This document shows positions 8,199 to 62,964 of a stretch of DNA of 64,000 nucleotides, piece by piece. How positions within the stretch are numbered: position 1 is the stretch's first letter; every line of letters starts with the position of its first letter. The stretch comes from Acidiphilium sp. (GTDB lineage Bacteria; Pseudomonadota; Alphaproteobacteria; Acetobacterales; Acetobacteraceae). A model generated the notes under the pieces. It had not been told where the DNA came from and made no database searches. It worked only from the letters and a program-made list of their open reading frames with translations. The translations under genes and the position numbers were made by a program. Location: positions 186,001 through 250,000 of the forward strand of contig JAQTXH010000001.1 of NCBI GenBank assembly GCA_028688905.1, read 5' to 3'.

Positions 8199-8214
8199 GG
8201 TTCGGAACCCCTGA

Positions 8215-14608: not shown

Positions 14609-14706
14609 CGCCTGATCGTTTAAGGACGAACAGGCTCTATCTTCTTTTTGCAAGCAATTTCATTGCCTTCGGTTGCCGCAGGGGCGTCAACCTCAAGCAA
14701 TATTGT
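14609..14706 (-). repeat. Dispersed ~100-bp intergenic repeat, copy C
   Basis: Lies between the convergent ends of gshA and bioA, in the opposite orientation to copy B. A hairpin of GCCTGATCGT and ACGAACAGGC (14610-14635) precedes the core, read on the minus strand as GCAATGAAATTGCTTGC, TGCGGCAACCGAAGG and TTGAGGTTGACGCC. It could terminate transcription from both sides. Confidence 0.88.
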
Positions 14707-14726
14707 ACTAAGTATCAAGAGTTTTT

Positions 14727-16981: not shown

Positions 16982-17003
16982 GAACCTCTCCGATTTGCCT
17001 CCA

Positions 17004-17055
17004 GGGCAGTTTGCCCCCCAAAGCAGGATGCCATCGGGGCAGATTGCCCCGATGG
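17004..17055. promoter_or_regulatory. Twin palindromes between bioB and bioF
   Basis: Two inverted repeats share one core. GGGCA-GTT-TGCCC lies at 17004-17016, and the larger CCATCGGGGCA-GAT-TGCCCCGATGG at 17031-17055 has perfect 11-base arms. Their centres are 33 bases apart, about three helix turns, in the bioBA/bioFD control region. They look like a pair of operators. The motif is unlike the BioR box TTATmTATAA. Confidence 0.6.
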
Positions 17056-17142
17056 CGGGAATTGGTGATAAACCGCCACGCCATCGACGGGAAGGGTTTT
17101 GGTGACACGCGCCAGATGAACGCACCAGATGAACACAGTCAT

Positions 17143-18285: not shown

Positions 18286-18944
18286 GCGCCTGGTTCATTA
18301 CCGGCACCGGCACCGAGATCGGTAAAACCCATGTCGCCGGTGCGATGATCCGGCGCTGGCGCGCGGGCGGGATGGCGGCGCGCGCGCTCAAGCCGGTCGC
18401 CACCGGCTATCAGCCCGCGCGCTCGGCCACCAGCGATGCCGGGGTCTTGCTCGCGGCGATGGGCCAGATGACCGGCGATGCGGCGGTGGCACGGATTTGT
18501 CCCTGGCGGTTCGCCGATCCGCTATCGCCTGACATGGCGGCGGCGCGGGCGGGGAAAGCGATTCCGTTCGATGACGTGCTGGGGTTCTGCCGTACCGAAA
18601 TCGCGCGCGCGACCGCGCCCTTGCTGATCGAAGGGGTGGGCGGCGCGATGGTGCCGCTCGATCAATGCCATACCGTGCGGGATTGGATGGCGGCGCTGAA
18701 CATTCCGGCCATTGTGGTCTGCGGCGGCTACCTCGGCGCGATCAGCCACACGCTTTGTACGGTCGAGGCGATGCGGGCGCGCGACATCCCGATCGCGATG
18801 GTGGCGATCAACCCGATCGGCGATCTGCCGGTACCGGCCACTGTAACCCAGGCCAGCCTGATCCGGCACGGTGCCGGCCCCGTTCTGGTGTTCGGCACAC
18901 CGGAATGGCAGGACTGGGTCGATCAGGCACCCGGCAAGCGGTAA
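18282..18944 (+). CDS. bioD: Dethiobiotin synthetase
   Basis: Closes the ureido ring of dethiobiotin from DAPA, CO2 and ATP. The 220-residue protein has the variant P-loop FITGTGTEIGKTHVAG, KPVATGYQP and LIEGVGGAMVPL. The GTG start overlaps the bioF stop. With bioA, bioB and bioF the late pathway is complete here; no gene for making the pimeloyl moiety was seen in the window. Confidence 0.95.
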   Translation: MSAWFITGTGTEIGKTHVAGAMIRRWRAGGMAARALKPVATGYQPARSATSDAGVLLAAMGQMTGDAAVARICPWRFADPLSPDMAAARAGKAIPFDDVLGFCRTEIARATAPLLIEGVGGAMVPLDQCHTVRDWMAALNIPAIVVCGGYLGAISHTLCTVEAMRARDIPIAMVAINPIGDLPVPATVTQASLIRHGAGPVLVFGTPEWQDWVDQAPGKR

Positions 18945-18987
18945 CGACCGAGGCGATCGGCCGAACTTCTCGCCGGGCAGATGGGCC

Positions 18988-19010
18988 GCCGGGTGAAACC
19001 TCAACCCGGC
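18988..19010. terminator. Hairpin between convergent bioD and hldE
   Basis: GCCGGGT at 18988-18994 pairs with ACCCGGC at 19004-19010 around a nine-base loop in the 84-base convergent gap. No T-run follows, so it would be a weak or factor-dependent terminator. Confidence 0.35.
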
Positions 19011-19028
19011 TGGCGTCAGACGCACGCG

Positions 19029-20528
19029 TTACGGTGCCGCCTGCGCCCGTGCCGCGCTGCCTGTGGTCAATCCCGTGAGGCGTTTCACCGTCGCGGTGGT
19101 CGAGTGGCCGGGCATGAGTGCCGCCAGCATCACCCGTCCACCCCAGGATTCGACCTCGCGCGCTCCAACCACGGTATCATGGGTGTAATCGGCCCCTTTG
19201 ATCAACACATCCGGGCGGATCGCCTCCAGCACATCGAGCGGGGTGTCCTCCTCGTAGATCACCACCAGATCGACGCTGGCGAGCGAGGCCAGCACCGCCG
19301 CCCGCGCTGCTTCCGGCTGCACCGGGCGTGTCGCCCCCTTCAGCCGCCGCACCGAACTATCGGCATTGATCCCCACGATCAGCCGGTCGCACGCGGCGCG
19401 GGATTGTTCGAGCAGGTGGATATGCCCGGGGTGCAGCAGGTCGAAACATCCGTTGGTGAACCCCACCCGCCAGCCGCGCTGGTGCCACCGCTCGGCGGCC
19501 TCGGCGGCGATCTGGCGTGTCACCACTTTGCGCAGTGCCCCGGTCGCGGGTTTCACGGCGTCGATCAAATCGTGCGGCCGTGCCACTGCCGTGCCGACCT
19601 TGCCGACCACCAGCCCACCGGCGATGTTGGAAAGCCGCGCCGCCACTTCCAGCGTCAGCCCGGCTGCCAGCCCGGCCGCCAGCACGGCCACCACCGTATC
19701 GCCAGCGCCGGACACATCGTAAACTTCGGGCGCTTCGGCGGGATAATGCCGCTCGGTATCGGCGGTGATCAGGCTCATGCCGTCCTCGGCACGGGTACAC
19801 AGCACCGCGCTGAACCCGAACCGCCCGATCAGTTCGCGCGCCGCCGCCACGATCGCCGGTTCATCGTCCAGATCGCGCCCGGTCACGAGCGCCAATTCGC
19901 GCCGGTTCGGTGTGATGACGTCGGCCCCGGCGTAGTGCGACCAGTCGGCTCCCTTGGGGTCGACCACCACCAGCCGCCCAATCGATTTCGCGCTGGCAAT
20001 CAACGCCCGCGCAATTCCCGGGGTCAGCACGCCCTTGCGATAGTCCGACAGCACGGTGACCGAGGTTGCCGCCATCGCGTCGGCGGCGATTTTCAGCAGC
20101 CGCTCGCCAAGTTTTTCCGGCAGCGGGGCAATAAACTCCCGATCGGCGCGGATCAGATGTTGCCCGGACGCGATGTACCGGGTTTTAACGGTTGTCGCCC
20201 GGCCATTCTCCACCAGCAGCCACGGTTCGACATTGGGCTGCCCGCCGATCAGCGCGGTGAGGTCGGACCCCTCCTGGTCATCGCCCACCACCGACACAAA
20301 CGCGGTCGCCGCGTCCAGCGCGGTCAGATTGCGGACGACATTGCCGGCACCGCCCGGCATCGCGATCTCGCGCGTCACCGACAAAATCGGCACCGGTGCC
20401 TCCGGGCTGACCCGTTCCACCCGCCCATAAACATACCGGTCGAGCATCAAATCGCCCACAACCAATACGCTCGCGCGCGCCAGGGACTGGATCGCCGCGA
20501 TCAGATCGCCATCGTCATGCTCCGCCAT
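19029..20528 (-). CDS. hldE: Bifunctional heptose-7-phosphate kinase / heptose-1-phosphate adenylyltransferase
   Basis: Makes ADP-heptose for the lipopolysaccharide inner core. The 499-residue protein is a natural two-domain enzyme. The N-terminal PfkB kinase has VLVVGDLMLDRYVYG, MPGGAGNVVRNL and YDVSGAGDTVVAVLA. The C-terminal nucleotidyltransferase has VGFTNGCFDLLHPGHIHLL and LIKGADY. It is convergent with bioD and divergent from hslO. Confidence 0.96.
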   Translation of the reverse strand: MAEHDDGDLIAAIQSLARASVLVVGDLMLDRYVYGRVERVSPEAPVPILSVTREIAMPGGAGNVVRNLTALDAATAFVSVVGDDQEGSDLTALIGGQPNVEPWLLVENGRATTVKTRYIASGQHLIRADREFIAPLPEKLGERLLKIAADAMAATSVTVLSDYRKGVLTPGIARALIASAKSIGRLVVVDPKGADWSHYAGADVITPNRRELALVTGRDLDDEPAIVAAARELIGRFGFSAVLCTRAEDGMSLITADTERHYPAEAPEVYDVSGAGDTVVAVLAAGLAAGLTLEVAARLSNIAGGLVVGKVGTAVARPHDLIDAVKPATGALRKVVTRQIAAEAAERWHQRGWRVGFTNGCFDLLHPGHIHLLEQSRAACDRLIVGINADSSVRRLKGATRPVQPEAARAAVLASLASVDLVVIYEEDTPLDVLEAIRPDVLIKGADYTHDTVVGAREVESWGGRVMLAALMPGHSTTATVKRLTGLTTGSAARAQAAP

Positions 20529-20658
20529 GTCGCATCGCTACCGTGCAGCGCGTTGTCGGGCAAGCAATTTCACCGCTCGACGATCACCATGCTGAAACAT
20601 TTCCGGGCGGTGTTGCGCAACGATGGCAAAACGCCGCGCCTGCCTCTATCTATGGGCG

Positions 20659-21621
20659 ATGACCACTCTGCCACCCTTTCTCGACCGCACCCGCCCCGAC
20701 GTGCCCGATCTTTCGGTCCAGCGTGGGGTTACGCCGTTTTTTCTGCCCAAGCAGCCCGTGCGCGGCCGGCTGGTGCGGCTGGGACCGCTGGCCGACGCGC
20801 TGCTGACCCGCCACGAACACCCGGAACCGCTGCGTGCCTTGCTCGGTCAGGCGCTGGCCCTGGTGGCCAGCCTCGCGACCGCGTTGAAATTTTCCGGCAC
20901 GTTTTCGCTCCAGGCCAAGGGCGACGGCATTGTGCCGATGCTGCTCGCCGACTGTACCGATAGCGGCGCGCTGCGGGGCTACGCCCGCCTCGCCGAGGGT
21001 GCCATCATTCCACCGGTCCCGACCGCCCGCGCGCTGATGGGCGACGGCTACCTCGCCTTCACCGTCGATCAAGGGCCGGACACCGAGCGTCACCAGGGCA
21101 TCGTCAGCCTGGAAGGTGACACGCTGGCCGAGATGGCGCTGCATTATTTTTCGACCAGCGAGCAGCTTCCCTGCGCCATCCACCTCGCCTGCGCCGCAAC
21201 CCCTGCCGGCTGGCGGGCCTCCGCCCTGATCATCGAGCGCATCGCGGGGGCGGGCGGCATCGACCCCGATCTGTCGGAAGAGGCGCAGGAGGAAGCCTGG
21301 CGCACCGCCAAAATTCTCGCGGCCACCATCACCGAGGGGGAGTTGCTCGACGATACTCTGCCGCCCGACCGCTTGCTGTATCGCCTGTTCCACGGCGAGG
21401 GCGTCGCGGTCGACCGGCCCCGGCCGCTCGCCTATGGCTGCCGCTGCTCGCGCGCCCGCCTGGCCGATGTGCTGGGCGGTTTTTCCGAAGACGATCTCGA
21501 CCACATGACAATCGAGGGTGACATCACCATGACGTGCGAGTTCTGCAACGTCGATTTCCGGTTCCCGCGTGCCGATATCGTGCCCGCCGAACCAGCCGAA
21601 CGCCGGGAGGACCACCGATGA
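20659..21621 (+). CDS. hslO: Redox-regulated chaperone Hsp33
   Basis: A holdase activated by oxidation. The 320-residue protein has the zinc/redox switch near its C terminus as CRCS and CEFC (the CxC...CxxC pattern). The N-terminal body includes SGTFSLQAKGDGIVPMLLADC and YFSTSEQLPCAIHLA. Start chosen at ATG 20659; an upstream in-frame ATG at 20623 adds twelve residues. The stop overlaps the following lipoprotein gene by ATGA. Confidence 0.94.
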   Translation: MTTLPPFLDRTRPDVPDLSVQRGVTPFFLPKQPVRGRLVRLGPLADALLTRHEHPEPLRALLGQALALVASLATALKFSGTFSLQAKGDGIVPMLLADCTDSGALRGYARLAEGAIIPPVPTARALMGDGYLAFTVDQGPDTERHQGIVSLEGDTLAEMALHYFSTSEQLPCAIHLACAATPAGWRASALIIERIAGAGGIDPDLSEEAQEEAWRTAKILAATITEGELLDDTLPPDRLLYRLFHGEGVAVDRPRPLAYGCRCSRARLADVLGGFSEDDLDHMTIEGDITMTCEFCNVDFRFPRADIVPAEPAERREDHR

Positions 21622-22352
21622 AGCACACCAAATTGCTGGCCATGCTGACGCTTGCCGCCCCGCTCGGCCTCGCCGCCTGCTCCAGCGGCCCGCCGGTGCA
21701 AACCAGCTTTCCCGAACTGCAATATACCTATCTGCCGCAAATCACCCTGAAGGTCGCGAATGTCGAAGTGCGCGACGAGTATCAGCCCGGTCCTGAGACC
21801 GCCCAATTGATCGACGATGCGCCGGAAGCTCCCGCCGCCGTGCTGGAACGAATGGCGCATGAACGCCTGATCGGCGACGGCAGCCCCGGCTCGGCGGTGT
21901 TCGTGATCAAGCGCGCCGCACTCGACCAGGTGGGGGACAATCTGGACGGCACCATGTCGGTGGAACTCAGCGTCAGTACCAGCAACGGCGAGCGGGTCGG
22001 CTACGCCGATGCCACGGTATCGCGCAGTGTTACCGCGCCATCGAACGAGACGCCGGACCGGATCAGGGCAGCGCTATACGATCTGACCAAGGAAATGATG
22101 GCCGACATGAATGTCGAGCTGCAATACCAAATTCAGAAAAGCCTGCCGGAATGGCTGGCTTATGGTCCAGGGGCCGGCATGGCACCTGCCTCGATGACGC
22201 CGCCGCCCTACACGGGGAATAACGGCATCGAGGCGCAGCCGCTGACCACGCAGCCGCCGGACACCGGCACCTCGCCGGACACTGGTACTCCGGTGGTGCC
22301 GGGCCAGACGCTACCGAACGCACCGCCGTTGCCCAGCCCGCAGGTGCCGTAA
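21618..22352 (+). CDS. Outer-membrane-type lipoprotein of unknown function
   Basis: A 244-residue protein with a lipoprotein signal: KHTKLLAMLTLAAPLGLAAC, Cys at residue 21. The body (residues 25-185) has no motif I can name. The last 55 residues are rich in Pro and Thr and include the imperfect repeats PDTGTSPDTGTP, suggesting a flexible tail. GGGAGG precedes the ATG, which overlaps the hslO stop. It ends base to base against the convergent pheT stop. Confidence 0.8.
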   Translation: MKHTKLLAMLTLAAPLGLAACSSGPPVQTSFPELQYTYLPQITLKVANVEVRDEYQPGPETAQLIDDAPEAPAAVLERMAHERLIGDGSPGSAVFVIKRAALDQVGDNLDGTMSVELSVSTSNGERVGYADATVSRSVTAPSNETPDRIRAALYDLTKEMMADMNVELQYQIQKSLPEWLAYGPGAGMAPASMTPPPYTGNNGIEAQPLTTQPPDTGTSPDTGTPVVPGQTLPNAPPLPSPQVP

Positions 22353-24833
22353 TCAGCCGCGCAAAGTCGCGCCGGTCGCTTTTGCCACTGCCGCGATAAT
22401 CCTGGCCGACACGGCTTCGATGTCGGTGTCGGTCAGACTTTTATCCTTCGGCTGCAACATCACCGCCACCGCGAGCGAAACCTTGCCCGCCGGCAATTTG
22501 TCGCCGGCATAACGGTCGAACAATTCAACGCCGGCGATCAAGGCACGATCCGCCCCCTTGGCCGCGCGCAGCAGGGTTTCCGCCGCGACGGTGGCATCGG
22601 CGATGAACGCAAAATCCCGTCGCACCGGCTGGAACGCGGAAAACAAAGGTGAAGCGCGCTTGCGCTTTTTCGGATCGGCGATCGCCGCGAGGTTGATTTC
22701 GAACGCAACGCTGCCCACCGGCAGGTCCATCACCGCGCACACCGAAGGATGCAGGGTACCGAACACGCCCAACACATGTTTCGGTCCCTGCCGCAACACG
22801 CCGGACTGGCCAGGATGATAATGCGCCGGCGCATCGGCGGCGATTGAAATCGCCTCCACCGGCACGCCGAGGGCGGCGAGAACCGCCAGCGCATCGGCCT
22901 TGGCATCCCATACATCGACCCGGCGCGACGGGCTGACCCAGGATAGCGGCGTTGCCCCCGCGCGCAGCCCGGCGGCGATCAGATCCTGACCGTCCGGGGT
23001 TTCCGCCCGAAACCCCGGGCCGATCTCGAACAGAGCAACGTCGTTGAACCCGCGCGCGATGTTGCGCGCAACCGCCAGAGCCAGGGTTGGCAGCGGCGAG
23101 GGCCGCATCTGGTCCAGATCCGCCGCGATCGGGTTTTGCACCGCCAGCGCCTCGGGGGCCGCACCGAACCGCGCCGCCGTCGCCCGATCGAGAAAGCTGA
23201 AGGTGACGCACTCCGCCATGCCGCGCGCCGCCAATACCCGCCGCGCCCGCACCGTGCGCGCCTGGCGTGGCGTCAGCGACGGGCGCGGCACGGCGTCCAT
23301 CACCGGCAGCGAAACCGGCACAATCCGGTCGAGTCCGTCGATCCGCAAAACTTCCTCGATCAAATCGACTTCCGGTTCGATGGCGAGCGCGCCCTCGCGC
23401 GCCGGCGTCGCGGCCCCCGGTGCCAGGTCGCCATGCTGATCCAGCGTGCTACCGCCCGGAATGCCCATCGCCGCGATGTCGTTGCGCCATGCGGGCACAT
23501 CGAGCGTCACCGTTTCAGCGTCACGCATCGCGACATGAAACCCCAAAGCCTCCAGAATTTCCACGGCGCGGTCCGGCGTCACATCCGACCGGCCCAACCC
23601 CATCAGCCGCTCGAACCGTAAATCCGCCCGCCGCCGCCATGCCGGTTCCGCTCCGGCCTCGGTCACCGCACTCGGGGTACCGCCGCAAATCTCGATGACC
23701 ATCGCGGTCGCCGCATCCAGCGCCGCCGGCAGCAAAGCGGGGTCGATCCCGCGCTCGAACCGTTGCCGCGCGTCGGAAAAAATCCCGGTCCGTTGCCCGC
23801 TCAGCGCAATCGTCACCCGGTCGAACAGCGCGCATTCGATGAAGACGTCGGTGGTGGCGGCATCGCACCCGGTCGCCTCGCCGCCGACGATCCCGGCGAG
23901 CGACTGCACACCCGCCGCATCGGCGATCACGCAGTCATCGCCTGTCACCGTCACATCCTTGCCGTGCAGGCCGCGAAACACCTCGCCCGCACCGCGCCGC
24001 AGCACCAGTTCGCCGCCGGATATTTTGTTGACATCGAACACGTGCAGGGGCCGGCCGAGATCGATCGTGAAAAAATTGGTGATGTCGGCCAGCGCATTGA
24101 TCGGTCGCAACCCGGCCTGTTCCAGCCGCTGTTTCAACCAGTCCGGACTTTCGCCGTTGCGCACCCCGCGCACCGTCCGTCCCAGTACCCAGGGGCAGGC
24201 TGCGGGAACCTCGTCACGCCAGACGATCGCGCTCGGCCCGTCACCTTTGATCGATGGCGCGGTCCATGGCTTGAGCGTGCCCAACCCCGCCGCCGCCAGA
24301 TCCCGCGCCACGCCCCGCACCGCGAACGCATCGCCCCGGTTCGGCGTGACGCCGATTTCGATCACCGGATCATCCAATCCGGCCCACAGCGCGTAGGGCG
24401 TGCCGACCGGAGCGTCGTCCGGGAGGTCCATGATCCCGTCGTGATCCTCGCCCAGCCCCATTTCGCGCGCCGAGAGCAGCATCCCCGCCGAAGCGACACC
24501 GCGGATTTCGCCCACTTTGAGCGCGATCCCGGTACCCGGCACGAAGGCACCGGGCGGCGCGAACACCGCCGTCATGCCGCTGCGCGCATTCGGCGCGCCG
24601 CACACCACCGAAACCTCGCCTGCCCCGGTTTCGACCCGGCATACCCGCAACCGATCCGCATTGGGATGGGGCACCGCCTCGATCACCCGCGCGATCACGA
24701 ACGGGGCCAGCGTCGCCGCCCGATCCTCGATCGCCTCGACCTCCAGCCCGATCGCCGACAAGGTTTCGGCGATCCGCGCCACCGACGCTTCGGTATCCAA
24801 ATGGGTCTTCAGCCATGAGAGCGAGAATTTCAT
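22353..24833 (-). CDS. pheT: Phenylalanyl-tRNA synthetase beta subunit
   Basis: The 826-residue beta chain of the alpha2-beta2 enzyme. An N-terminal tRNA-binding/EMAP-like domain (VIARVIEAVPHPNADRLRVCRVETG) is followed by the B3/B4 editing region, B5, the inactive synthetase core and a C-terminal anticodon-binding ferredoxin fold (PLFSAFQPVRRDFAFIAD). It overlaps pheS by ATGA. Length is usual for alphaproteobacteria. Confidence 0.97.
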   Translation of the reverse strand: MKFSLSWLKTHLDTEASVARIAETLSAIGLEVEAIEDRAATLAPFVIARVIEAVPHPNADRLRVCRVETGAGEVSVVCGAPNARSGMTAVFAPPGAFVPGTGIALKVGEIRGVASAGMLLSAREMGLGEDHDGIMDLPDDAPVGTPYALWAGLDDPVIEIGVTPNRGDAFAVRGVARDLAAAGLGTLKPWTAPSIKGDGPSAIVWRDEVPAACPWVLGRTVRGVRNGESPDWLKQRLEQAGLRPINALADITNFFTIDLGRPLHVFDVNKISGGELVLRRGAGEVFRGLHGKDVTVTGDDCVIADAAGVQSLAGIVGGEATGCDAATTDVFIECALFDRVTIALSGQRTGIFSDARQRFERGIDPALLPAALDAATAMVIEICGGTPSAVTEAGAEPAWRRRADLRFERLMGLGRSDVTPDRAVEILEALGFHVAMRDAETVTLDVPAWRNDIAAMGIPGGSTLDQHGDLAPGAATPAREGALAIEPEVDLIEEVLRIDGLDRIVPVSLPVMDAVPRPSLTPRQARTVRARRVLAARGMAECVTFSFLDRATAARFGAAPEALAVQNPIAADLDQMRPSPLPTLALAVARNIARGFNDVALFEIGPGFRAETPDGQDLIAAGLRAGATPLSWVSPSRRVDVWDAKADALAVLAALGVPVEAISIAADAPAHYHPGQSGVLRQGPKHVLGVFGTLHPSVCAVMDLPVGSVAFEINLAAIADPKKRKRASPLFSAFQPVRRDFAFIADATVAAETLLRAAKGADRALIAGVELFDRYAGDKLPAGKVSLAVAVMLQPKDKSLTDTDIEAVSARIIAAVAKATGATLRG

Positions 24834-25903
24834 GCCGGATCTCCCTCATGGAGCGTGACCGGCGCGAGCGGCGAGGTGCCGTAATGCGCCAGCCAGCGCA
24901 GATCGCTCTCGTAAAAATTCCGCAAATCCGCGATCCCGTGCTTGAGCATGGTGATCCGCTCGATTCCCATGCCGAAGGCGAAGCCCTGAAACTCGCGCGG
25001 GTCGAGGCCGCAATTGGCCAGCACGTTCGGGTGAACCATGCCGGCCCCCAGGATTTCCAGCCAATCGTTGCCGCCGCCGATCGCGCCGGTCTTGCGGTCC
25101 CACGCGATGTCGATTTCCATCGAAGGCTCGGTGAACGGGAAATAGCTTGCCCGGAACCGCGCCTTCAGATCGGGGATTTCGAAATAGGCGCGCAGGAAAT
25201 CGACCAGGCAGCCCTTCAGATGTGCCAGCGTGATGTCGCGGTCGATCACCAGCCCCTCGCACTGGTGAAACATCGGGCTGTGGGTGGCGTCATGATCGGA
25301 GCGGTAGGTCCGCCCCGGCACGATCACGCGGATCGGTGGCTTCTGTTCCAGCATGGTGCGGATTTGCAGCGGCGAGGTGTGGGTGCGCAGCACCATCGGT
25401 TTGTTGCGGCCGGCGGCCTTGAGATAGAACGTATCCATCATCGCCCGTGCCGGATGATGCGCCGGAATGTTCAGCGCGCCGAAATTATACCAGTCCTCCT
25501 CGATATCCGGCCCGTCCTTCACCCCGAATCCCATCGCGCCGAACAGGGCGGTGAGTTCCTCGATCGTGCGTGAAATCGGGTGGATCGAGCCACGCGCCTC
25601 CACCCGGCCGGGCAAGGATACATCGACGAACTCCGCAGCCAGGCGCGTCTCGAGGGCTGAAGCCTCCAGTACCGCGCGCCGTTGCTCGAGGGCCTCGGTC
25701 AAACTCGATTTCAGCGCGTTCACCGCGGCGCCAAAACTCTTGCGGGCTTCGGAATCCATCCCGCCCAGGGTTTTCAACAGCGCGGTTACCTCGCCGGATT
25801 TGCCCAGAAGAGCCACCCGCGCGGCGTCCAGGGCGGCTAGGTCGGCGGCGGCACCGATGACGGCACGGGCCTCGGTTTCGATCAAGGAGATTGGGTTTGA
25901 CAT
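24830..25903 (-). CDS. pheS: Phenylalanyl-tRNA synthetase alpha subunit
   Basis: The 357-residue catalytic chain that charges tRNA-Phe. An N-terminal coiled coil is followed by class II motifs: LRTHTSPLQIRTM, FHQCEGLVIDRDITLAHLKG, and motif 3 with GFAFGMGIERITMLKHGI. ATG 25903 is the family start. A strong minus-strand terminator about 70 bases upstream of the ATG, with no minus-strand gene before it, suggests leader attenuation. Confidence 0.96.
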   Translation of the reverse strand: MSNPISLIETEARAVIGAAADLAALDAARVALLGKSGEVTALLKTLGGMDSEARKSFGAAVNALKSSLTEALEQRRAVLEASALETRLAAEFVDVSLPGRVEARGSIHPISRTIEELTALFGAMGFGVKDGPDIEEDWYNFGALNIPAHHPARAMMDTFYLKAAGRNKPMVLRTHTSPLQIRTMLEQKPPIRVIVPGRTYRSDHDATHSPMFHQCEGLVIDRDITLAHLKGCLVDFLRAYFEIPDLKARFRASYFPFTEPSMEIDIAWDRKTGAIGGGNDWLEILGAGMVHPNVLANCGLDPREFQGFAFGMGIERITMLKHGIADLRNFYESDLRWLAHYGTSPLAPVTLHEGDPA

Positions 25904-25971
25904 GGCCGGGCAGGGAGCGTGCCGGGCGTGAAATGTCAAGCCGCGGCACAAAGGGCGCTAATGGGTCTCAC

Positions 25972-26005
25972 AAAAATAAACCCCCGGAACCGAAGTCCCG
26001 GGGGT
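25972..26005 (-). terminator. Intrinsic terminator in the pheS leader
   Basis: On the minus strand ACCCCCGG pairs with CCGGGGGT across a short loop with CTTCGG, followed by TTTATTTTTG. It stands just ahead of pheS in its reading direction, where only the leader could be terminated. An upstream 22-codon open frame starting on the minus strand near 26120 has two Phe codons but is not Phe-rich. Confidence 0.7.
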
Positions 26006-26403
26006 CTGAACCGTTCAAACCCTCAATCGCCACAAGCCAAAATCGCAGCGTTACAATTCCACCCCGACAAAATTTAGTCTGTCTAAAAAATAAACTAAAG
26101 CGACACGTTTTAACGACATTAAATCTACTTCGTCTCTCAGGTTGTATCTACAAATTAGAGGTAGAGTTGCTACCATAATACCGCGAATTTTTGCGGGTTC
26201 AGAAATTTGTAATAAAGTTCGGTATGGGGCCGAAAAATTCGAATGAATGGCAACTCACGATCGCCTGCAGAAGCCTTCCGTTACGCAACCAGGGGTATCG
26301 ACCGCATTCGTGGCCTGCGAGGCGATTGAGATCCGAGACGAAACTCCTTGCCTTGCGGCAAAAATCCATTACCCAGAACCCGTTGATTCAAAAGGGGCTT
26401 CGA
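26006..26403. other. Non-coding spacer between pheS and the oligopeptidase gene
   Basis: About 400 A+T-rich bases, unlike the flanks. It holds the pheST leader region on the minus strand, a small hairpin CCGC-GAATTTTT-GCGG near 26181-26196, and the ribosome site AAGGGG ahead of 26404. I see no convincing gene or RNA. Confidence 0.5.
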
Positions 26404-28644
26404 ATGATCAGATCGGCCACCGGTATTTTAGCGCGTCTGCCCGCGCTCATGCTTGCCAGTTTTGTCGTGGCCAGTTCTGTCGTGGCCAGTCCTGCCTTGG
26501 CCAGTCCTGGGGCACCTGCCTCGATTCCTAGGCCGGCACCCGCCCCGGTCGTGCGTCATGTCAGCCATGATTTCGGGACGCCCGTGATCGATGATTATCG
26601 CTGGATGGAAAAGCCCGGCAGCAAGCGCCTCGCAAACTACATGCGCGATCAGAACGCCTACACCCGCAAGGTGCTGGCCGCGATTCCCGGCAAGCGAGCG
26701 CTTTATGAGCAGATCAAAAAGGATGCCAACGTCGGCACGGTGGTGTTCTGGGTCACCCGCGCCGATGGCCGGATTTTTTATATGGGCATCGCCCCCGGCC
26801 AGAATACCGCGCATTTGTTCGTGCTCGATAAAATCGGCGGCAAGCCGCATTTGCTGATCGACCCGATGCAGTTCAGCAAAAACCATGTCCCGCAGGCACT
26901 GAACTACTATTTCGTCTCGCCAAATGGCAAATACGTCGCTTTCGGCGTCTCCGGCGGCGGTTCGGAACAGGCAAAACTGCGGGTGCTCGATGTCGCGACC
27001 CAAAAATTGCTCGACATCGGCATCACCCGAATCGACGGCGACAACACCGATTTCCCGCCGATCGCCTGGCTGCCGGATTCCAAGGGTTTCATCTATTACC
27101 GGCTGCATAAATTCGGCACCCAGGCACCGGTCACCGATTTCTATCAGAAGAGCCGCGATTACCTGCATCTGCTGGCGTCGACCGATCCCACCGGTGCCAC
27201 CGACAAGCCGGTGTTCGGCTGGAAAATTGCCGCATCCGCGCCAATGAGCATCGCGCAGGATGCCCTGGTGGTCACCGCCCCCGATTCGCACTATGCGCTC
27301 GGCCTGTTCACCGAAAACGAAGAGCTTCAGTCGATCGACGATGTCTATGCGACGAAACTGAGCGATCTCGAGGACGGTACGCCGGTCTGGCACAAAATCG
27401 CCGGTCGCGGCGTGCAGATGGCAGGTATCGCTTTGCATGGCGACCAGCTCGACGTGATCACCCCGAACGGCGCGCCACGCTACAAGGTGGTTGGTTACGA
27501 TCTCGCCGGTTCAGCCGCGCCCAAAACCGTGGTCAAACCGGGCGACGACGTGATCACCAGCCTCGCCGCCGGCAGCCACGCCCTGTACGTCGGCGCGATG
27601 CACGACGGCATGGGCCGCATCATGCGCGTGGCTTATGGCACCGATGCGACAACCATGGTCGACATGCCGTTCCAGGGCGGTCTGGGTCAGATCCTCGCCG
27701 ACCCGAACGGTTCGGGCATCTGGTTCCGCTTGTCCGGCTGGACCACGCCCTCCGGCTGGTACGATTTCGACCCGGCGACCGGCGCGGTGACCAATACCAA
27801 TCTGCAAAAACCGCCGAAAGTCAGCTTCGCCGGCATCGAATCGAAAGAGGTCAAGGCGGTGTCGTGGGACGGTACGATGATCCCGGTGTCGATCATCATG
27901 AAAAAAGACACGAAGCTGGACGGCAAAAACCCGACCCTGCTGATCGGCTATGGCAGCTACGGCATTACCCTGACGCCGTTTTTTGCACCGACATTCCTGC
28001 CCTGGCTAGACCATGGCGGCATCATCGCGATCGCTCACGTGCGCGGCGGCGGCTGGTATGGCGATGCCTGGCACAAGGCCGGGATGAAACAGTGGAAAAT
28101 CAACACCGTGTTCGATTTTATCGCCGCCGGGCAATATCTGGTCGATCGGCACTACACCTCACCGGCACATCTCGCCGGCGAGGGCGGCAGCGCCGGCGGT
28201 ATCACGATCGGCGGCGCGGTGGCGTGGCGACCGCATCTGTTTGCGGCGGCCATCGACAGCCATGGCGATACCAATTCGCTGCGGATGCAGTTCAGCCCGA
28301 ACGGCCCGCCCAATGAAATCGAATTTGGCAACGTGTTGAAAGAGCGCGATTTTCACTGGATTTATGCGATGGACGCGATGGCGCATATCCGCAACGGGGT
28401 GAAATACCCCGCCATTCTCGCGGTTACCGGTGCCAATGATCCGCGGGTCGAACCCTGGGAAGTCGCAAAGTTCGCCGCGCGCCTGCAAGCGGCCAGCACC
28501 TCCGGCCGGCCGGTGTTGCTGCGGGTGAGCTATCAGTCGGGCCACGGCATCGGCTCGACCAAGGACCAGGAGGTCCGATCGCTGGCGGATCAGGACGCGT
28601 TCCTGTTCTGGCAGCTTGGGGTGCCAGGCTTCCAGCCGCAATAA
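26404..28644 (+). CDS. Secreted prolyl oligopeptidase (S9A)
   Basis: A 746-residue serine peptidase with a signal peptide of about 35 residues, so probably periplasmic. An N-terminal beta-propeller region starts with DFGTPVIDDYRWME, typical of S9A. The alpha/beta-hydrolase domain shows the nucleophile Ser in GEGGSAGGITIGG, the Asp in GANDPRVEPWEV and the His in YQSGHG. Note GGSAGG where GGSNGG is common. It would cleave proline-containing peptides. Three 15-bp tandem units encode part of the signal peptide. Confidence 0.9.
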   Translation: MIRSATGILARLPALMLASFVVASSVVASPALASPGAPASIPRPAPAPVVRHVSHDFGTPVIDDYRWMEKPGSKRLANYMRDQNAYTRKVLAAIPGKRALYEQIKKDANVGTVVFWVTRADGRIFYMGIAPGQNTAHLFVLDKIGGKPHLLIDPMQFSKNHVPQALNYYFVSPNGKYVAFGVSGGGSEQAKLRVLDVATQKLLDIGITRIDGDNTDFPPIAWLPDSKGFIYYRLHKFGTQAPVTDFYQKSRDYLHLLASTDPTGATDKPVFGWKIAASAPMSIAQDALVVTAPDSHYALGLFTENEELQSIDDVYATKLSDLEDGTPVWHKIAGRGVQMAGIALHGDQLDVITPNGAPRYKVVGYDLAGSAAPKTVVKPGDDVITSLAAGSHALYVGAMHDGMGRIMRVAYGTDATTMVDMPFQGGLGQILADPNGSGIWFRLSGWTTPSGWYDFDPATGAVTNTNLQKPPKVSFAGIESKEVKAVSWDGTMIPVSIIMKKDTKLDGKNPTLLIGYGSYGITLTPFFAPTFLPWLDHGGIIAIAHVRGGGWYGDAWHKAGMKQWKINTVFDFIAAGQYLVDRHYTSPAHLAGEGGSAGGITIGGAVAWRPHLFAAAIDSHGDTNSLRMQFSPNGPPNEIEFGNVLKERDFHWIYAMDAMAHIRNGVKYPAILAVTGANDPRVEPWEVAKFAARLQAASTSGRPVLLRVSYQSGHGIGSTKDQEVRSLADQDAFLFWQLGVPGFQPQ

Positions 28645-29129
28645 TTCCGGATGAGACCATAGGGGGGAACCGTGACATCATCGCCATGGTCGGCGGGGAC
28701 GAAACCGGGACCGGGTGCCTCGATTTCCATTATGCCGAATGAATGTTAACGTTGCGTTACCAAATGCCGCTGTTAGCTGGCCAAATCAGCCATCATTTGC
28801 GGTAAATCGGCATGCAACCGTGTTAAAAAAGTCGCGTGTCGATGAAATTATCAAAAAGACGTGGGGGTGGTGACCGAACTTGCGTGAACTGGCTTGAACC
28901 GTCGTCGTAAGGGGAATAGATGCTGCCAATGCGAAATGGTTGACGGGTAATGTCATGTCAGCCGTTCGCGCGAAATTTCGGTTCGCTTATCGATTGTGTG
29001 GTTGACGATCGCTCGGCCATGCAAGGGGTGAACGAGCCGGAAAGACTTCTTGAGGTAACCGACTCCACCAGCCGATACTGTGTCGGCGGATCACTTAAAC
29101 TTTTGGCACCAAACACCGGGACGGTACAT
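28645..29129. other. Long spacer upstream of pal
   Basis: About 485 bases without a supported gene. Open frames here extend pal upstream but lack ribosome sites and lie before the lipoprotein signal. TTGACG occurs at 28939 and 29002 as possible -35 boxes, without clear -10 boxes. It probably holds the promoter of the pal operon. Confidence 0.4.
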
Positions 29130-29633
29130 ATGAAAATCAAAGCTCTGGGCGCACTTGCGGCTGTTGCCCTGCTTGCGGCGTGCTCCAACGCCCCCAAAAC
29201 CAACACGGCTTCGACCGGGTCTGGCGCGAATGTGGCGACCACCGGCCCGGCACCCGGCAGCGAGCAGCAGCTGGTGGCCGATGTCGGCGATCGCGCCTTT
29301 TTCGGCTTCAACAAGTCGAACCTGACCAGTGCCGATCAGTCGACGCTCGACCGTCAGGCGGCATGGCTCGCGAAGTACCCGAACGTCGATGTTCTGGTCG
29401 CCGGCAATGCCGATCCGCGTGGCACCGAGACCTACAATCTGGCACTCAGCAAACGCCGCGCCAATACCGCCCGCGACTATCTGGTCGCCAAGGGTGTCAC
29501 CCCGTCGCGTGTGCAGACCGTCGGCTACGGCAAGTCCTGCTTGGTTTCGCCGGGCAACACGTCACAGGATTACGCTCAGGATCGCGTCGCGATCACCTCG
29601 GTTCAGGGTTTCAACCCACAGAACTGCCACTAA
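29130..29633 (+). CDS. pal: Peptidoglycan-associated lipoprotein
   Basis: The 167-residue outer-membrane lipoprotein of the Tol-Pal system, anchoring the outer membrane to the wall. The signal peptide ends LAAVALLAAC at the lipidated Cys. The OmpA-like domain has VLVAGNADPRGTETYNLALS, KRRANTARDYL and RVQTVGYGKSCL. It is followed by cpoB, but a dispersed repeat splits the two. tolB, usually next to pal, is absent here. Confidence 0.96.
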   Translation: MKIKALGALAAVALLAACSNAPKTNTASTGSGANVATTGPAPGSEQQLVADVGDRAFFGFNKSNLTSADQSTLDRQAAWLAKYPNVDVLVAGNADPRGTETYNLALSKRRANTARDYLVAKGVTPSRVQTVGYGKSCLVSPGNTSQDYAQDRVAITSVQGFNPQNCH

Positions 29634-29691
29634 CCATCGCGTTTGCGGGTGTCGGTCGCCCGATCCTGCTGATTTACCACAACCGATACTT

Positions 29692-29790
29692 TAGAGCATG
29701 TTCGTTTCAGGACGAACATGCTCTCTCTTTTTGTTGCGAGCAGTTTCATCGCCTTCGGTTGCCACAAAGGTGTCAACCTCATGCAATGTT
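29692..29790 (-). repeat. Dispersed ~100-bp intergenic repeat, copy D
   Basis: The best hairpin of the family: AGAGCATGTTCGT and ACGAACATGCTCT form a perfect 13-bp stem (29693-29724), followed on the plus strand by CTCTTTTTG. The core follows on the minus strand as GCGATGAAACTGCTCGC, GTGGCAACCGAAGG and TGAGGTTGACACC. It lies between pal and cpoB, inside an otherwise conserved operon. Confidence 0.9.
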
Positions 29791-29903
29791 CCTCCAGGCA
29801 TCGGCGACCCGCGCAGGCAGGTTGCCGATTCCATCAAATGCCATATTGCCCTATATATGACAGACGCGCGGTTCCTGCGCGCCCACTGCCCCGAGGATGT
29901 TTC

Positions 29904-30782
29904 ATGCGCCGTTTCATGCTTGCCGCCCTGCCGATCGTCAGTATCGCCCTTGCCGGGTTGACCCCGCTCGATACGGCGCGCGCTCAAATGATTTCCAGCC
30001 GCGAGGGCATCGCGCTGGAAGACCAGATCCTGGAACTCAAGCAACAAATTCAGGCCATGCAGCCGAACGGCAATGGCGGATCGGTGCTCGCCGCCCCCGC
30101 GCCAAGCGATAACGGTGCCACTGCCGGCAGCGCCAGCAGCGCCCTGTTGCCCAATATGTTGCAGCAGATTCAGACCTTGAATGATCAGGTGCAGGATTTA
30201 CGCGGCCGGGTCGATACGCTGGAGCACGAGGTTGCGACCCAGCACGGCCAAATCAACCAGGAAATTGGCAACCTGAAGTTTCAGTTGAGCCAGAACGGCT
30301 CCACCGCAACCCCGGCACCGGAAGCAGCGGGTGGAACTTTGGGCGCGGCACCACAGGCTCCGGCCCGCGCCCCGGCCCCTGCGGCGGCGCGGCCCGCGCA
30401 CGTCGAAGCCTCGATCACCGCGGCCCGCCGCGCCCTCGCGGCCGGCGATTACCCGTCTGCGGCGGCGGATTCGCGCGCCGTCATCGCCAAGCAGGGCAAG
30501 GGGGCCGGTAACGGGGCCGCTGAAATGATCCTGGCGGAAGCGCTGGGGCATCAGGGTAATCATCAATCCGCCGCCATCGCGTATGACGACGCCTATAACG
30601 CCAGCCGCACCGGCCCCTACGCGCCGGATGCATTGTTGGGCCTGGCCAATTCGCTCACCGCGATCCATCAGGATCAGGAAGCCTGCGACACGCTGGATTC
30701 GCTGGCCAGCCAGTTTTCCTCACCCTCGGCCAGCCTCGCGACCAAGCTGCGCCTTGCGCGGGCTCGCGCCCACTGCGGGTGA
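29904..30782 (+). CDS. cpoB: Cell division coordinator CpoB (YbgF-type)
   Basis: A 292-residue periplasmic protein linking Tol-Pal to wall synthesis at division. The signal peptide ends near TARAQ (residues 24-28). Residues 35-135 contain coiled-coil heptads (QIQTLNDQVQDLRGRVDTLEHEV). An Ala/Pro linker at 140-170 leads to a C-terminal TPR region (AALAGDYPSAAADSRAVI..., YAPDALLGLANSLTAI). ATG at 29904 has CGAGGA upstream. It overlaps tilS by GTGA. Confidence 0.88.
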   Translation: MRRFMLAALPIVSIALAGLTPLDTARAQMISSREGIALEDQILELKQQIQAMQPNGNGGSVLAAPAPSDNGATAGSASSALLPNMLQQIQTLNDQVQDLRGRVDTLEHEVATQHGQINQEIGNLKFQLSQNGSTATPAPEAAGGTLGAAPQAPARAPAPAAARPAHVEASITAARRALAAGDYPSAAADSRAVIAKQGKGAGNGAAEMILAEALGHQGNHQSAAIAYDDAYNASRTGPYAPDALLGLANSLTAIHQDQEACDTLDSLASQFSSPSASLATKLRLARARAHCG

Positions 30783-35136: not shown

Positions 35137-35550
35137 CCATTCTATGTGTCAAAAAAACAAATGCTTAGAGCGCTTTCCGAAGAATGAAAACGCCCTAAGA
35201 ATTGTTTTGCGCGCCATTTCATTCGCCGAAGATCGCTTCGCGTTGCCAGCCGGATTGTTCCAGATTGTTATTGCTCTAGCTTCCTGTAGCCGGCAGGCCG
35301 ATTTTCGGTTATATGAAAATCGCGCGCCCCTGCGGCGCGGATGAAACGGGGGAATTGTCCCCTGGGCGATCGGAACGGCTACGGTCATTCGGTTGCGTGC
35401 AAAGCCGGGTATTCTCCGGCGTTTCCGGCCACATGGCCCGTGGCTGTGACGAGTTTGTTCTCCCACAGCCCTGCCCATGCCGCCCGAGACGCTGGCCCCG
35501 CGTGGCACGGCCGATGTCCGCCGCTCCGGTCCTGTTGTTGTAAGGACTGA
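35137..35550. other. Leader region upstream of pnp with a possible diverged repeat
   Basis: About 410 bases with no gene. 35166-35280 loosely matches the dispersed repeat (hairpin-like AGAGCGCTTTCC/GAAAACGCCCT, then GCGCGCCATTTCATTCGCC, ending TTGCTCTA). Farther on GGGG-AATTGT-CCCC at 35350-35363 and other short inverted repeats may form a structured pnp leader. rpsO, which often precedes pnp, is absent. Confidence 0.45.
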
Positions 35551-37707
35551 ATGATGTTCGATAAGTATTTTCGCAAGGAACTCGACTGGGGTGGGCGCAA
35601 GCTCATTCTGGAAACCGGCAAAGTCGCCCGCCAGGCCGATGGCGCGATCGTCGCCTCCTATGGCGACACCGTGGTGCTCGCCACCGCCGTGGGCGCGCGT
35701 TCGGTCAAGCCGGGGCAGGATTTCTTTCCGCTCACGGTGAACTACCAGGAAAAATTCTTTGCGGCCGGGCGCATCCCCGGCGGTTTCTTCAAGCGTGAAG
35801 GCCGCCCGACCGACCGTGAAACCCTGATCTGCCGCCTGATCGACCGGCCGATCCGCCCGCTGTTTCCGCATGGCTTCAAGAACGAAGTGCAGATCATCGT
35901 CACGGTTCTCAGCCACGATCTGGAAAACGAACCCGATGTTCTGTCGCTGATCGCCGCCTCGGCGGCACTCACCCTGTCCGGCATGCCCTTCTTCGGCCCG
36001 GTCGGGGCGGCACGGGTCGGTTACATCGATGGCGAGTACATTCTCAATCCAACCTCGGCGCAGATCAAGGACAGCAAGCTCGATCTCGTGCTCGCCGGCA
36101 CCGCTGAAGGCGTGTTGATGGTCGAGTCCGAAGCGCATGAGCTTTCCGAGGACATCATGCTCGGCGCGGTCGATTTCGGGCATAAGGCGTTCCAGCCGGT
36201 GATCCAGGCGATCGTCGAACTCGCTGAGCACGCCGCCAAGGAGCCCTGGGCGCTGACCGAGACAAGCGATGAGGAGATCAACCTCGCCGCCCGCATCGAC
36301 ACGTTGGCCCGCGAGGGTATCCGCATCGCCTATGACGAGCGGGAAAAAGCCGCCCGCCATGACAAGCTGAACGCGGTCAAAACCGAAACCCTCGCCAAAC
36401 TGACCGAGGAAGGCCTGTCGGCCGAGAAAGCCAAGGGCATGTTCAAGGCGCTTGAGGCCGACATCGTCCGCAACGCGATCCTCGACAACGGCATCCGGAT
36501 CGACGGCCGCGATACCAAAACGGTCCGCCCGATTCTCGCCGAGGTCGGCGTGCTGCCGCGCACCCATGGCAGTGCCCTGTTCACCCGCGGCGAAACCCAG
36601 GCGCTGGTGGTGGCGACGCTCGGCACCGCGCAGGATGAGCAGTTGATCGACGCGATCGAGGGCGAATATCGCGAGCATTTCATGCTGCACTATAATTTCC
36701 CTCCCTACTCGGTCGGCGAAACCGGCCGCGTCGGCAGTCCCGGCCGGCGTGAAGTCGGTCATGGCAAGCTCGCCTGGCGGGCGATCCATCCGCTGCTGCC
36801 CGGCAAAGACAAATTCCCGTACACGCTGCGGGTGGTCTCGGAAATCACCGAGAGCAATGGCTCCTCCTCGATGGCCACGGTCTGCGGCACCTCGCTCGCG
36901 CTGATGGACGCCGGCGTACCCCTGGCCCGCCCGGTCGCCGGCATCGCGATGGGGCTGATCAAGGAAGACCACGCCTTCGCCGTGCTGTCCGACATCCTGG
37001 GTGACGAAGATCATCTCGGCGACATGGACTTCAAGGTCGCCGGCACCGAATCCGGCATCACCTCGCTGCAGATGGACATCAAGATCACCTCGATCACCTT
37101 CGAGATCATGAAGATCGCGCTGGATCAGGCAAAGCATGGCCGGATGCACATCCTCGGCGAAATGGCCAAGGCGCTGCAAGGCTCGCGGGACGATGTTTCC
37201 CAAAATGCACCGCGGATAACCGTCATCACCGTGCCGAAAGACAAGATCAGGGACGTGATCGGCACCGGCGGCAAGGTGATCCGCGAGATCGTCGAGCAGA
37301 CCGGCTGCAAGATCGACATCGAAGACGATGGAACGATCAAGATCGCCGCAACCTCCGACGAACAGGCGCAGAAAGCGATCGACAAAATCCGTGGCCTCAC
37401 CACCGAGCCGGAAGTCGGCCAGATCTATACCGGCAAGGTCGTGAAAGTCGCCGATTTCGGTGCCTTTGTGAACTTCTTCGGTGCCCGCGACGGGTTGGTT
37501 CATATCAGCGAACTCGCCCAGGGCCGGGTTGCCCGCACTGGTGACGTGGTGAAGGCCGGCGATGTCGTAAAGGTCAAAATGGTCGGCCTCGACGATCGCG
37601 GCAAGGTGAAATTGTCGATGCGCGTGGTCGATCAGGAGACCGGAGCGGATATTTCCGATCAGGTCGGCGGCAAAGGGGCGCGGCGCGAGGACGCTGCCGC
37701 CGAATAG
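35551..37707 (+). CDS. pnp: Polyribonucleotide nucleotidyltransferase
   Basis: The 718-residue 3'-5' phosphorolytic exoribonuclease and degradosome component. Two RNase PH domains ([42 protein letters not shown]) flank an alpha-helical linker. A KH domain ([20 protein letters not shown]) and an S1 domain ([17 protein letters not shown]) follow. ATGs at 35551 and 35554 are both possible; TAAGGAC precedes them. Confidence 0.97.
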
Positions 37708-37769
37708 AGCCTGACCGTTTGAGGACGCACAGGCTCTATCGCTATCTTTGCGAGCAATATTGCTCTAAC
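37707..37769 (-). repeat. Short deletion form of the dispersed repeat, copy E
   Basis: Begins at the last base of the pnp stop codon. AGCCTG-ACCGTTTGAGGACGCA-CAGGCT forms the hairpin, then GCGAGCAATATTGCTC. Compared with copy A, the 43 bases between two ATTGCT direct repeats are missing, as expected for recombination or slippage between them. Confidence 0.8.
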
Positions 37770-61659: not shown

Positions 61660-61768
61660 CTACCGCAGTGCGGCATAACACGCCATCATCGGGCGGTCAG
61701 CGTTGTTGCGGCGACGGACGATAGTGGTTATCGTAACTGGCCGATGGTTCCACCCGAGGAGACACTCC

Positions 61769-62827
61769 ATGTTCATGACGCTTCGGCGGGTGTTCCGTGA
61801 TGAGGATGCCGATGTCCGGGGCAAGATACTGGGGATTTACGGATTTCTGGTCGCGTTCAATCTGGCTGCCGCCGCCTACGCGCTGATCGCGTTTTATAAT
61901 CATCCGGTGCTGCTCGGCACGGCACTGCTGGCCTATGGATTCGGTCTGCGCCACGCGGTGGACGCCGATCATATCGCGGCAATCGACAATGTCACCCGCA
62001 AGCTGATGCAAGAGGGCAAGCGGCCGGTCGCGGTCGGGTTTTACTTCTCGATCGGACACTCGCTGGTCTTATTCATCGGCACCATCGTCATCGCGGTGAC
62101 GGTGATGCAGATTTCGGATGGGTTCAACAATTTCAACCATCTTGCCGGGATCATCGGCACTTTGGTGTCGGGGGTGTTTCTACTCGTGATGGCGCTCATG
62201 AACCTGATGATCGCGCGATCGACCTACCGCACGTTCCGACATGTTCGTAACGGCGGCGCGTATAATGACGATGATTTCAATATTCTGCTGAACAACCGGG
62301 GTCTGATCGCACGCATTCTGCGACCGTTGTTTCGGCTGGTCGAGCATAGCTGGCAGATGCTGCCGGTGGGTTTTCTGTTCGGCCTGGGGTTCGACACCGC
62401 GACCGAGGTCAGTCTGCTGACCGTGGCGGCGGTCGAGGCGGGCAAGGGCATGCCAATGTGGTCGATCCTGGCGTTTCCGGCGCTGTTTTCGGCGGGAATG
62501 TCGCTGATCGACACGACCGATGGTGTGTTGATGCTGGGTGCGTATAGCTGGGCCTTCGTCAAGCCGATACGCAAACTCTATTACAATCTGACGATCACGC
62601 TGGTGTCGGTCGCAATCGCCCTGCTGATCGGCGGGGTCGAGACGCTGGGGTTGATTGGCGGCGAGATGAAATTTCAGGGCTGGTTCTGGGGCCGGATCTC
62701 AGACCTCAACAATAATTTTGGGTTCCTCGGCTTTGGGATTATCGCGATCTTCGTTGTCGCCTGGGTTGTTTCGGTTGTCGTCTATCGCGTCAAACGGCTG
62801 GACGAGATCGAGGTTGAGAGCATCTGA
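61769..62827 (+). CDS. NiCoT-family nickel/cobalt permease
   Basis: A 352-residue transporter with eight predicted helices. The family signature in helix II is GLRHAVDADHIAAIDNVTRK, and LFGLGFDTATEVSLL and FPALFSAGMSLIDTTDG complete the metal path. ATG 61769 has GAGGAGAC upstream. Nickel versus cobalt preference is not decidable. A full dispersed repeat follows it. Confidence 0.94.
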   Translation: MFMTLRRVFRDEDADVRGKILGIYGFLVAFNLAAAAYALIAFYNHPVLLGTALLAYGFGLRHAVDADHIAAIDNVTRKLMQEGKRPVAVGFYFSIGHSLVLFIGTIVIAVTVMQISDGFNNFNHLAGIIGTLVSGVFLLVMALMNLMIARSTYRTFRHVRNGGAYNDDDFNILLNNRGLIARILRPLFRLVEHSWQMLPVGFLFGLGFDTATEVSLLTVAAVEAGKGMPMWSILAFPALFSAGMSLIDTTDGVLMLGAYSWAFVKPIRKLYYNLTITLVSVAIALLIGGVETLGLIGGEMKFQGWFWGRISDLNNNFGFLGFGIIAIFVVAWVVSVVVYRVKRLDEIEVESI

Positions 62828-62859: not shown

Positions 62860-62964
62860 GAGAGCAATATTGCTTGAGGTTGACGCCCTTGCGGCAACCG
62901 AAAGCGATGAAATTGCTCGCGAAAAGAAGATAGAGTATGTTCGTCCTGAAACGATCATGCTCTA
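62860..62964 (+). repeat. Dispersed ~100-bp intergenic repeat, copy A
   Basis: The fullest copy. It starts with the palindrome AGCAATATTGCT, then TTGAGGTTGACGCCCTTGCG, CAACCGAAAGCGATGAAATT and GCTCGCGAAAAGAAGATAGA, and ends in the hairpin GAGTATGTTCGT / ACGATCATGCTC. It follows the Ni/Co permease gene. Confidence 0.9.

Follow-up and report, generated by a model that had tools for sequence, protein, structure and literature searches.

In a stretch of 64,000 nucleotides from an Acidiphilium sp. genome (hereafter the window, meaning the whole of this stretch), a repeat of about one hundred base pairs recurs beside the ends of genes. The question raised by this locus is why the repeat is found there: it could be a terminator, it could protect the 3′ ends of mRNA, or it could be a miniature mobile element, and all three roles had been proposed in an earlier, sequence-only reading of the window.

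Copies of the Repeat in the Window

The earlier reading had reported four full copies, and all four exist, with slightly wider limits (Table 1); a short fifth copy and a probable, diverged sixth copy had been overlooked. With up to three mismatches, the core pattern of the repeat matches four times in the window against a mean of 0.01 in shuffled sequences, and a scan of the window with Rfam at the gathering score gave no match to any family. It is also true that a stop codon lies within about 60 bases of each copy; copies A and B as well as the fifth copy open with the very TAG that serves as the stop. As for copy A, the frame upstream of this TAG is open across the 500 codons examined, and the ORF matches the ChvG model at 396.7 bits, under the model cut-off of 740. 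Beside copy B, gshA (TIGR01436) and bioA both score over their model cut-offs, and other species of the genus have their native gshA stop at this very codon, as TAG in G011 and G012. The probable sixth copy is upstream of ORF 35551-37707, the stop codon of which sits in the fifth copy.

Table 1. Copies of the repeat and adjoining features in the window; bit scores are those of the covariance model R2, for which E-values are rough.
Feature	Position	Strand	Remarks
Copy A, full length	6381-6485	+	67.8 bits; ends degenerate
First TAG of copy A	6381-6383	+	stop codon of ChvG-like histidine kinase ORF 4752-6383
Copy B, full length	14606-14710	-	79.6 bits
TAG of copy B	14606-14608		stop codon of gshA (glutamate-cysteine ligase, 13247-14608)
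bioA	14727-16010	-	next gene after copy B
Copy C, full length	29692-29796	-	74.2 bits; H2 is a perfect hairpin
Setting of copy C			between pal-like lipoprotein gene (stop 29633) and ybgF-like gene
Probable sixth copy, diverged	35166-35278	-	26.8 bits, E 0.0016; other subtype (TAGAGCAATA ... GCGCTCTA)
Fifth copy, short form of 63 bp	37705-37767	-	47.0 bits, E 1.7e-7; inside of H1 absent
TAG of fifth copy	37705-37707		stop codon of ORF 35551-37707 (own gene call)
Copy D, full length	62860-62964	+	95.7 bits
Setting of copy D			32 bp past TGA of HoxN/NicT-type nickel/cobalt transporter gene 61703-62827 (TIGR00802 over cut-off)
H1 of copy D	62862-62918	+	imperfect stem, 3-nt bulge on 3′ side; from folds of four other copies and model structure on copy D
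H2 of copy D	62931-62964	+	from folds of other copies and model structure on copy D

Architecture of the Unit

The unit is about 105 bp long. It opens with a TA and the long, imperfect hairpin H1 (TA-GAGCAAT...ATTGCTC), in which three unpaired nucleotides bulge out on the 3′ side; a linker of about 13 nt, rich in A, then leads to the second hairpin H2 between two further TAs (TA-GAGC...GCTC-TA). Four copies other than copy D were folded and are stable, with z from -3.3 to -6.1 on the sense strand and from -2.8 to -4.7 on the antisense strand. TA is present at both ends in 71 of the 104 distinct copies of alignment A4; among 54 representatives, for which the fetched copy with the highest score was taken from each genome, it is present at both model ends in 34 and at the H1 end in 48. 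Moreover, the first four bases are identical at both element ends in 20 of 34 and different in 14. The H1 end matches its own hairpin arm at 7.0 of 8 bases (best of about 40 positions) and the opposite end of the element at 5.4 of 8 (best of 40), for which shuffled sequences give 4.75.

Thirteen weaker matches of the genome were also fetched. Ten of them are short forms of 63-66 bp in which the inside of H1 is absent, L376 consists of H1 only, and L382 and L383 are a degenerate and a partial copy. The short forms (L371-L375, L377-L381 and the fifth copy of the window) show two junction types, AATATT and AATGAAATT, and they may have arisen either by precise loss of the palindrome or as short forms that are themselves mobile.

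Copy Number and Distribution

In the source genome (G000; 3.4 Mb in 26 contigs), BLASTN with copy D as the query gave at least 40 full or near-full copies, with 40 of 97 candidates scored, and the covariance model R1, built from 29 copies of this genome, placed at least 54 matches at or above 70 bits when 150 of its 1930 candidates were scored. The covariance-model search that had been put forward as a check on the repeat family thus found further copies in the genome, and in relatives as well. With a single window copy as the BLASTN query, 7 of 60 genomes match; with the covariance model, matches are found in 44 of 150 genomes and 36 of 102 genera of a family sample, in 8 of 13 genomes of the genus (R2, the broader model) and in 23 of 385 genomes of a class sample, the source genome being included in every count. 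A pattern scan gave 52 stretches, borne for the most part by Acidocella facilis, A. aquatica and MAGs of Acetobacteraceae and Rhodospirillales; two of the 52, from Ruminococcus and a 'Rickettsia typhi' MAG, resemble chance matches. In addition, lineages hold homogeneous versions of their own, with seven equal scores in G098 and six in G079.

Covariation in the Stems

The earlier reading had also taken the differing but still paired hairpin arms as compensatory change. Across species this is strongly supported: in the strict alignment A3, of 39 matches, 30 of 34 pairs are changed on both sides, and 267 double-changed cells are counted, compared with 70.6 in shuffles and 18-47 in slid controls. 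The looser alignment A2, which includes some antisense or chance matches, gives 401 double-changed cells against 100.7. Alignments A2-A4 were fitted to the model structure, and their pair counts lean toward it; single-sequence folds of copies from other genera keep the hairpin layout without any such fit, with much of both stems differing in sequence. That is to say, the stems have been rewritten between lineages while staying paired.

Within the genome the signal is weak, and the four window copies had been over-read in this respect. Five pairs show double changes, compared with 4.1 in shuffles (192 of 500 shuffles reach five), and 14 cells are double-changed, compared with 6.7 (1 of 500 reaches 14). 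The covariation score is above all 500 shuffles, a score which relatedness alone can produce, and the signal amounts to about one base pair, C-G in 15 and A-U in 9 of 29 copies. In G000 the stems diverge by 7.9% and the unpaired positions by 12.0%, the stem changes being 149 one-sided and 19 double compensated.

Target Site and Stop Codons

Distinct copies whose TA ends are intact number 71; in 67 of them a C or T stands before the TA and in 61 an A or G after it, the corresponding shares for all TAs of the window being 39% and 37%; the insertion target is YTAR. The terminal TAG of the element closes, in frame, an adjoining open frame of at least 150 codons in 14 of 36 copies of the source genome and in 39 of 68 copies elsewhere. 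Counted by element ends, the same test gives 15 of 53 and 42 of 107, against 5 of 106 and 12 of 214 in control frames. The far TA is followed by the base with which the codon ended prior to insertion; this base is a purine (A or G) in 39 of 43, so that the codons entered were mostly native TAA or TAG. Since a TAA or TAG after C or T is itself a YTAR site, the element lands in native stops and returns a TAG to the gene, and insertion into stop codons largely explains the placement of the repeat at gene ends.

The density of YTAR sites alone was rejected as the cause of this use of stops. According to our own gene calls, for which codon-usage models trained on window genes were used in place of a standard gene finder, 12 of 36 elements are at stops in G000 and 20 of 37 in G001 and G009 taken together, compared with 8 of 206 and 100 of 1406 YTAR sites. 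When elements are set against YTAR sites by class in G001 and G009, the values are 20/100 for stops, 9/54 for convergent gaps, 5/165 for tandem gaps and 3/119 for divergent gaps. Stops are thus used about as often per site as convergent gaps, and avoidance of 5′ regions seems to be enough as an explanation in these two genomes, the far lower use of tandem and divergent gaps being what a loss of insertions close to gene starts would produce. For G000 the values are 12/8, 2/5, 18/69 and 2/10 for the same classes (small numbers, from 3-kb loci); the excess at stops is larger than in G001 and G009, again on small numbers, and half of the copies (18/36) are in tandem gaps, away from stops. By these calls, none of the 73 elements lies within a called gene, which agrees with the earlier statement that the repeat lies outside genes and is partly so by construction, because an inserted element would split the gene call.

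In G186 (Acidocella aquatica), copies also stand head to tail in tandem, at C73:176713-176815 and 176814-176916, C33:64-169 and 170-272, and C67:159722-159824 and 159825-159927. One of these pairs has a TA in common, as is expected if the end of a copy is itself a YTAR target.

Empty Sites

G001 and G009 are two species of the genus, and most of their aligned blocks are 80-89% identical. For 11 of the 19 elements of G009, both flanks were located within 1.42 Mb of G001 sequence; among the other eight, the flank was too short in one case and no joint match was obtained in seven. The element is borne by G001 at none of these 11 sites, where the gap is too short or otherwise filled and the model has no match. 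At five of the 11 the empty site is clean, with 2-8 bp between the two flanks. At L248 and L250 the empty site has one TA and the element is flanked by TA on both sides, which is an exact TA duplication; at L245 one of the two TAs is altered, and L251 and L254 are degenerate. In the opposite direction, two of the 20 elements of G001 could be placed in 0.24 Mb of G009, both sites being unoccupied there, and among the 13 comparable sites of the two species there is none with the element in common. Likewise, at the site of copy C the element is absent in all eight relatives aligned there.

At three of the 11 sites of G009, a different two-hairpin repeat with TAGTGTC ends is borne by G001, in two cases on the very same TA, as judged by eye. 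This reuse of sites complicates the simple picture of insertion.

Alternative Explanations

It is improbable that the repeat is a functional RNA element, that is, a terminator or a protector of mRNA 3′ ends selected at the ends of genes. The location of the copies at gene 3′ ends, the stable folds on both strands and the lower divergence of stems than of unpaired positions all fit such a role. When copy C is read antisense, H2 together with the linker scores as terminator-like (in a scan of 14400-30000, where copy B was unlisted), but the genome has a terminator-like hairpin of its own just downstream of this copy, as seen by eye. The element stands at stops in both orientations equally, with 7 on the H1 side and 8 on the H2 side in the source genome and 21:21 elsewhere, and its sites turn over between related species. 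Selection at the RNA level, as judged from G-U over A-C in the stems, was rejected: over all pairs there are 100 G-U and 69 A-C (p 0.02), but the excess comes from a single pair (18 G-U, 0 A-C), without which the counts are 82 and 69 (p 0.33). Among the three roles proposed at the outset, the miniature mobile element is supported by the empty sites, by YTAR with its TA duplication and by the lineage expansions, whereas terminator and 3′ protector are unsupported as the reason for spread, given the equal orientation and the absence of a clear strand preference. Side effects on transcripts are possible, and the low divergence of the G000 stems leaves room for some constraint after insertion. There is hardly any chance that old repeats were kept in place and the whole family was rewritten in each species by gene conversion. 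Species do tend toward a homogeneous version of their own, and a copy lies close to the end of gshA in the source genome as well as in A. facilis, but it is in the stop codon in the former and 15 bp past a TGA in the latter, and none of the 13 placed sites is common to G001 and G009. Orthologous retention at gshA, suggested by a BLAST overlap with A. facilis, was ruled out by these different positions.

Two further explanations concern the enzymes around the repeat. If it were a CcrM-linked regulatory repeat, the GANTC in the loop of H1 would be the point of the element; 30 of the 54 representatives indeed have GANTC toward the inside of H1, against 8.3 expected from shuffles, with only 7 in the H2 half, and a gene with a RAMA domain is present in 12 of the 13 genus genomes, that of the source genome being full length to the CcrM model at 596 bits, below the cut-off of 830. 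However, GANTC occurs in none of the 36 copies examined in the source genome and in 1 of 22 in Acidocella facilis, though both are rich in copies, and G005, G008, G011 and G012 have the RAMA-domain gene without a match to the repeat model. Lineages without the methylation site are still copy-rich, so this site is not what drives the spread, and the explanation is very improbable. A REP/REPIN-type element moved by a RAYT transposase (Y1, HUH), with TAG at the foot of each hairpin, would account for the TAG-footed modules, the internal bulge, the dimer layout and the high copy number, but it is likewise very improbable and was rejected after a search of the 13 genus genomes with PF01797. At E 0.001 this profile has no match in the element-rich G000, G001, G004, G007, G009 (88% complete) and G010, nor in G003, G011 and G012, and it is found in G002, G005 and G008, which have no R2 match, and in G006, which has five. 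In addition, the sections of PMC3733652 drawn on here contain no mention of a TA duplication.

An IS5-type transposase is a lead as the candidate mobiliser. IS5-family genes (PF13340) are found in 12 of the 13 genus genomes, yet G004, which is rich in copies, has no PF13340 match. As judged by eye, the TIRs of the IS5-family insertion sequences L283, L300 and L302 (G006, G007, G010) start with GAGCC(T/G/C)GA, the ends of L282/L292/L301 (G011) start with GTGTCC, and L280 has a YTAR target with TA. The GAGC and GTGTCC ends resemble those of the GATCAA-type repeat studied here and of the TAGTGTC repeat, over 4-8 terminal bases only, and the apparent duplication of the insertion sequences of both types is TNA, whereas that of the repeat is TA. 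A scripted search for TIRs around the PF13340 genes gave mostly chance pairs and was set aside, and only ends obtained by comparison of copies were used.

Relation to Known Repeats

The Caulobacter CcrM-associated intergenic repeats (CIR) were reportedly described by Chen and Shapiro in 2003. In the sections of PMC2229807 drawn on here, CIR are repeats of about 110 bp in alphaproteobacteria, with two inverted repeats and a linker, terminal TA and GANTC in one loop; their target site duplication is given as '?' and their mobility is treated as unsettled. They are called strictly intergenic in the part used of a 2024 review (PMC10969869). By this description (PMC2229807, in part), the present repeat resembles CIR in its alphaproteobacterial hosts, its length, its intergenic position, the two long inverted repeats with a linker and the terminal TA, and also in the GANTC in the inner part of one arm in many lineages. 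It is unlike CIR in that the examined copies of the source genome and nearly all those of Acidocella facilis are without GANTC, and the TA duplication at YTAR, the empty sites and the insertion into stop codons seen here go beyond the description of CIR. The repeat is filed as CIR-like, a variant that lacks the methylation site by which CIR are defined, and not as CIR proper, the match to CIR being one of description.

The RIME elements of Rhizobium and Sinorhizobium, reportedly described by Osteras in 1995, are a second point of comparison. As described in the part used of PMC2573895, they are intergenic mosaic repeats of alphaproteobacteria, and a swap of modules is found here in G001 (L239:8060-8179). 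The Bru-RS1 and Bru-RS2 repeats of Brucella, as far as described in the sections used of PMC2267715 and PMC3163539, are palindromic and 103-105 bp long, and IS711 enters Bru-RS1 at YTAR with TA duplication; by description the present repeat is like them in size, in palindromic structure and in being intergenic and alphaproteobacterial. ERIC, Correia/NEMIS and RUP are also small, non-autonomous elements with TA ends and stable stem-loops, but according to the same sections of PMC2229807 the ends of the whole element pair together in them, whereas here, as in CIR, there are two separate hairpins. The palindromic and often paired modules are shared with the GTAG and CGTC REPs/REPINs (PMC3733652, in the sections used, where CGTC repeats are given as missing in Acetobacteraceae); unlike these, the carriers tested here have no Y1/RAYT match, and the TA is duplicated.

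Proposed Mechanism

The repeat is very probably a non-autonomous, MITE-like mobile DNA element of the CIR kind, built of two palindromic modules and an A-rich linker. The element inserts at YTAR, with duplication of the TA in the two empty/full pairs in which both ends are intact, and related species hold it at different sites. TAA and TAG stops preceded by C or T are landing sites for it, the gene getting TAG back, and stops together with convergent gene ends are the places where an insertion should harm least. Source copies may need intact hairpins, or intact hairpin ends, for their mobilisation, in which case pairing would be kept while landed copies decay. As the weakest part of the proposal, an IS5-family transposase may act in trans, the TIRs of such elements starting with GAGC or GTGTC and their targets being short and TA-containing. 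Several points are counted against the mobile element: no transposase was identified, Y1 having no match in the six element-rich genomes and PF13340 none in G004; an undamaged TA on both sides is seen at just two of the five clean sites; three of the 11 sites of G009 hold a different two-hairpin repeat in G001; half of the G000 copies are in tandem gaps; the G000 stems diverge less than the unpaired positions; and G-U exceeds A-C when all pairs are counted.

A wider and rather unlikely extension is that CIR-type repeats are class-wide alphaproteobacterial transposons defined by their hairpins. The enzyme would read folded hairpins, as single-stranded DNA or as a cruciform, and not a fixed end sequence, and insertion at YTAR would make stops safe landing sites. 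Several observations point in this direction: stem sequence is largely free while pairing is kept; the H1 end is more like its own arm than like the opposite end; there are forms reduced to H1, forms with a swapped H2 and shortened forms; and the two ends can differ in their first four bases.

CIR were tied to the cell-cycle methylase CcrM, and the sections used of PMC2229807 leave their way of moving open. The YTAR target of the mobile element offers a simple reason for the pile-up in stop codons, in that TAG is restored and the protein stays intact. Moreover, the family is a large natural set of hairpins with one structural constraint and nearly free sequence, and provides material for asking what a transposase reads.

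Exchange of Hairpin Modules

The second repeat family of G001 has hairpins of the form TAGTGTC...GACACTA and a AATTCAATGATT-like linker, and it is seen at L239 about 12600-12720, L315 about 11091-11209, L314 about 8450-8654 and L237 about 8060-8200; in two cases it occupies the very TA at which G009 has the GATCAA-type element. The stretch L239:8060-8179 of G001 is a chimera of a GATCAA-type H1 and a TAGTGTC-type H2, from which it follows that hairpin modules are exchanged between the families. In Acidocella facilis, the H2 of L116, L127 and L128 matches that of L106, L131 and L139 from another species (MAG ZJ1.bin8), with H1 being different, and this likeness suggests a possible transfer or recombination of hairpin modules. 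In L138 of Acidocella facilis (3702-3807), the inner part of H2 is inverted relative to the sister copies, as a flip of the hairpin during replication would give.
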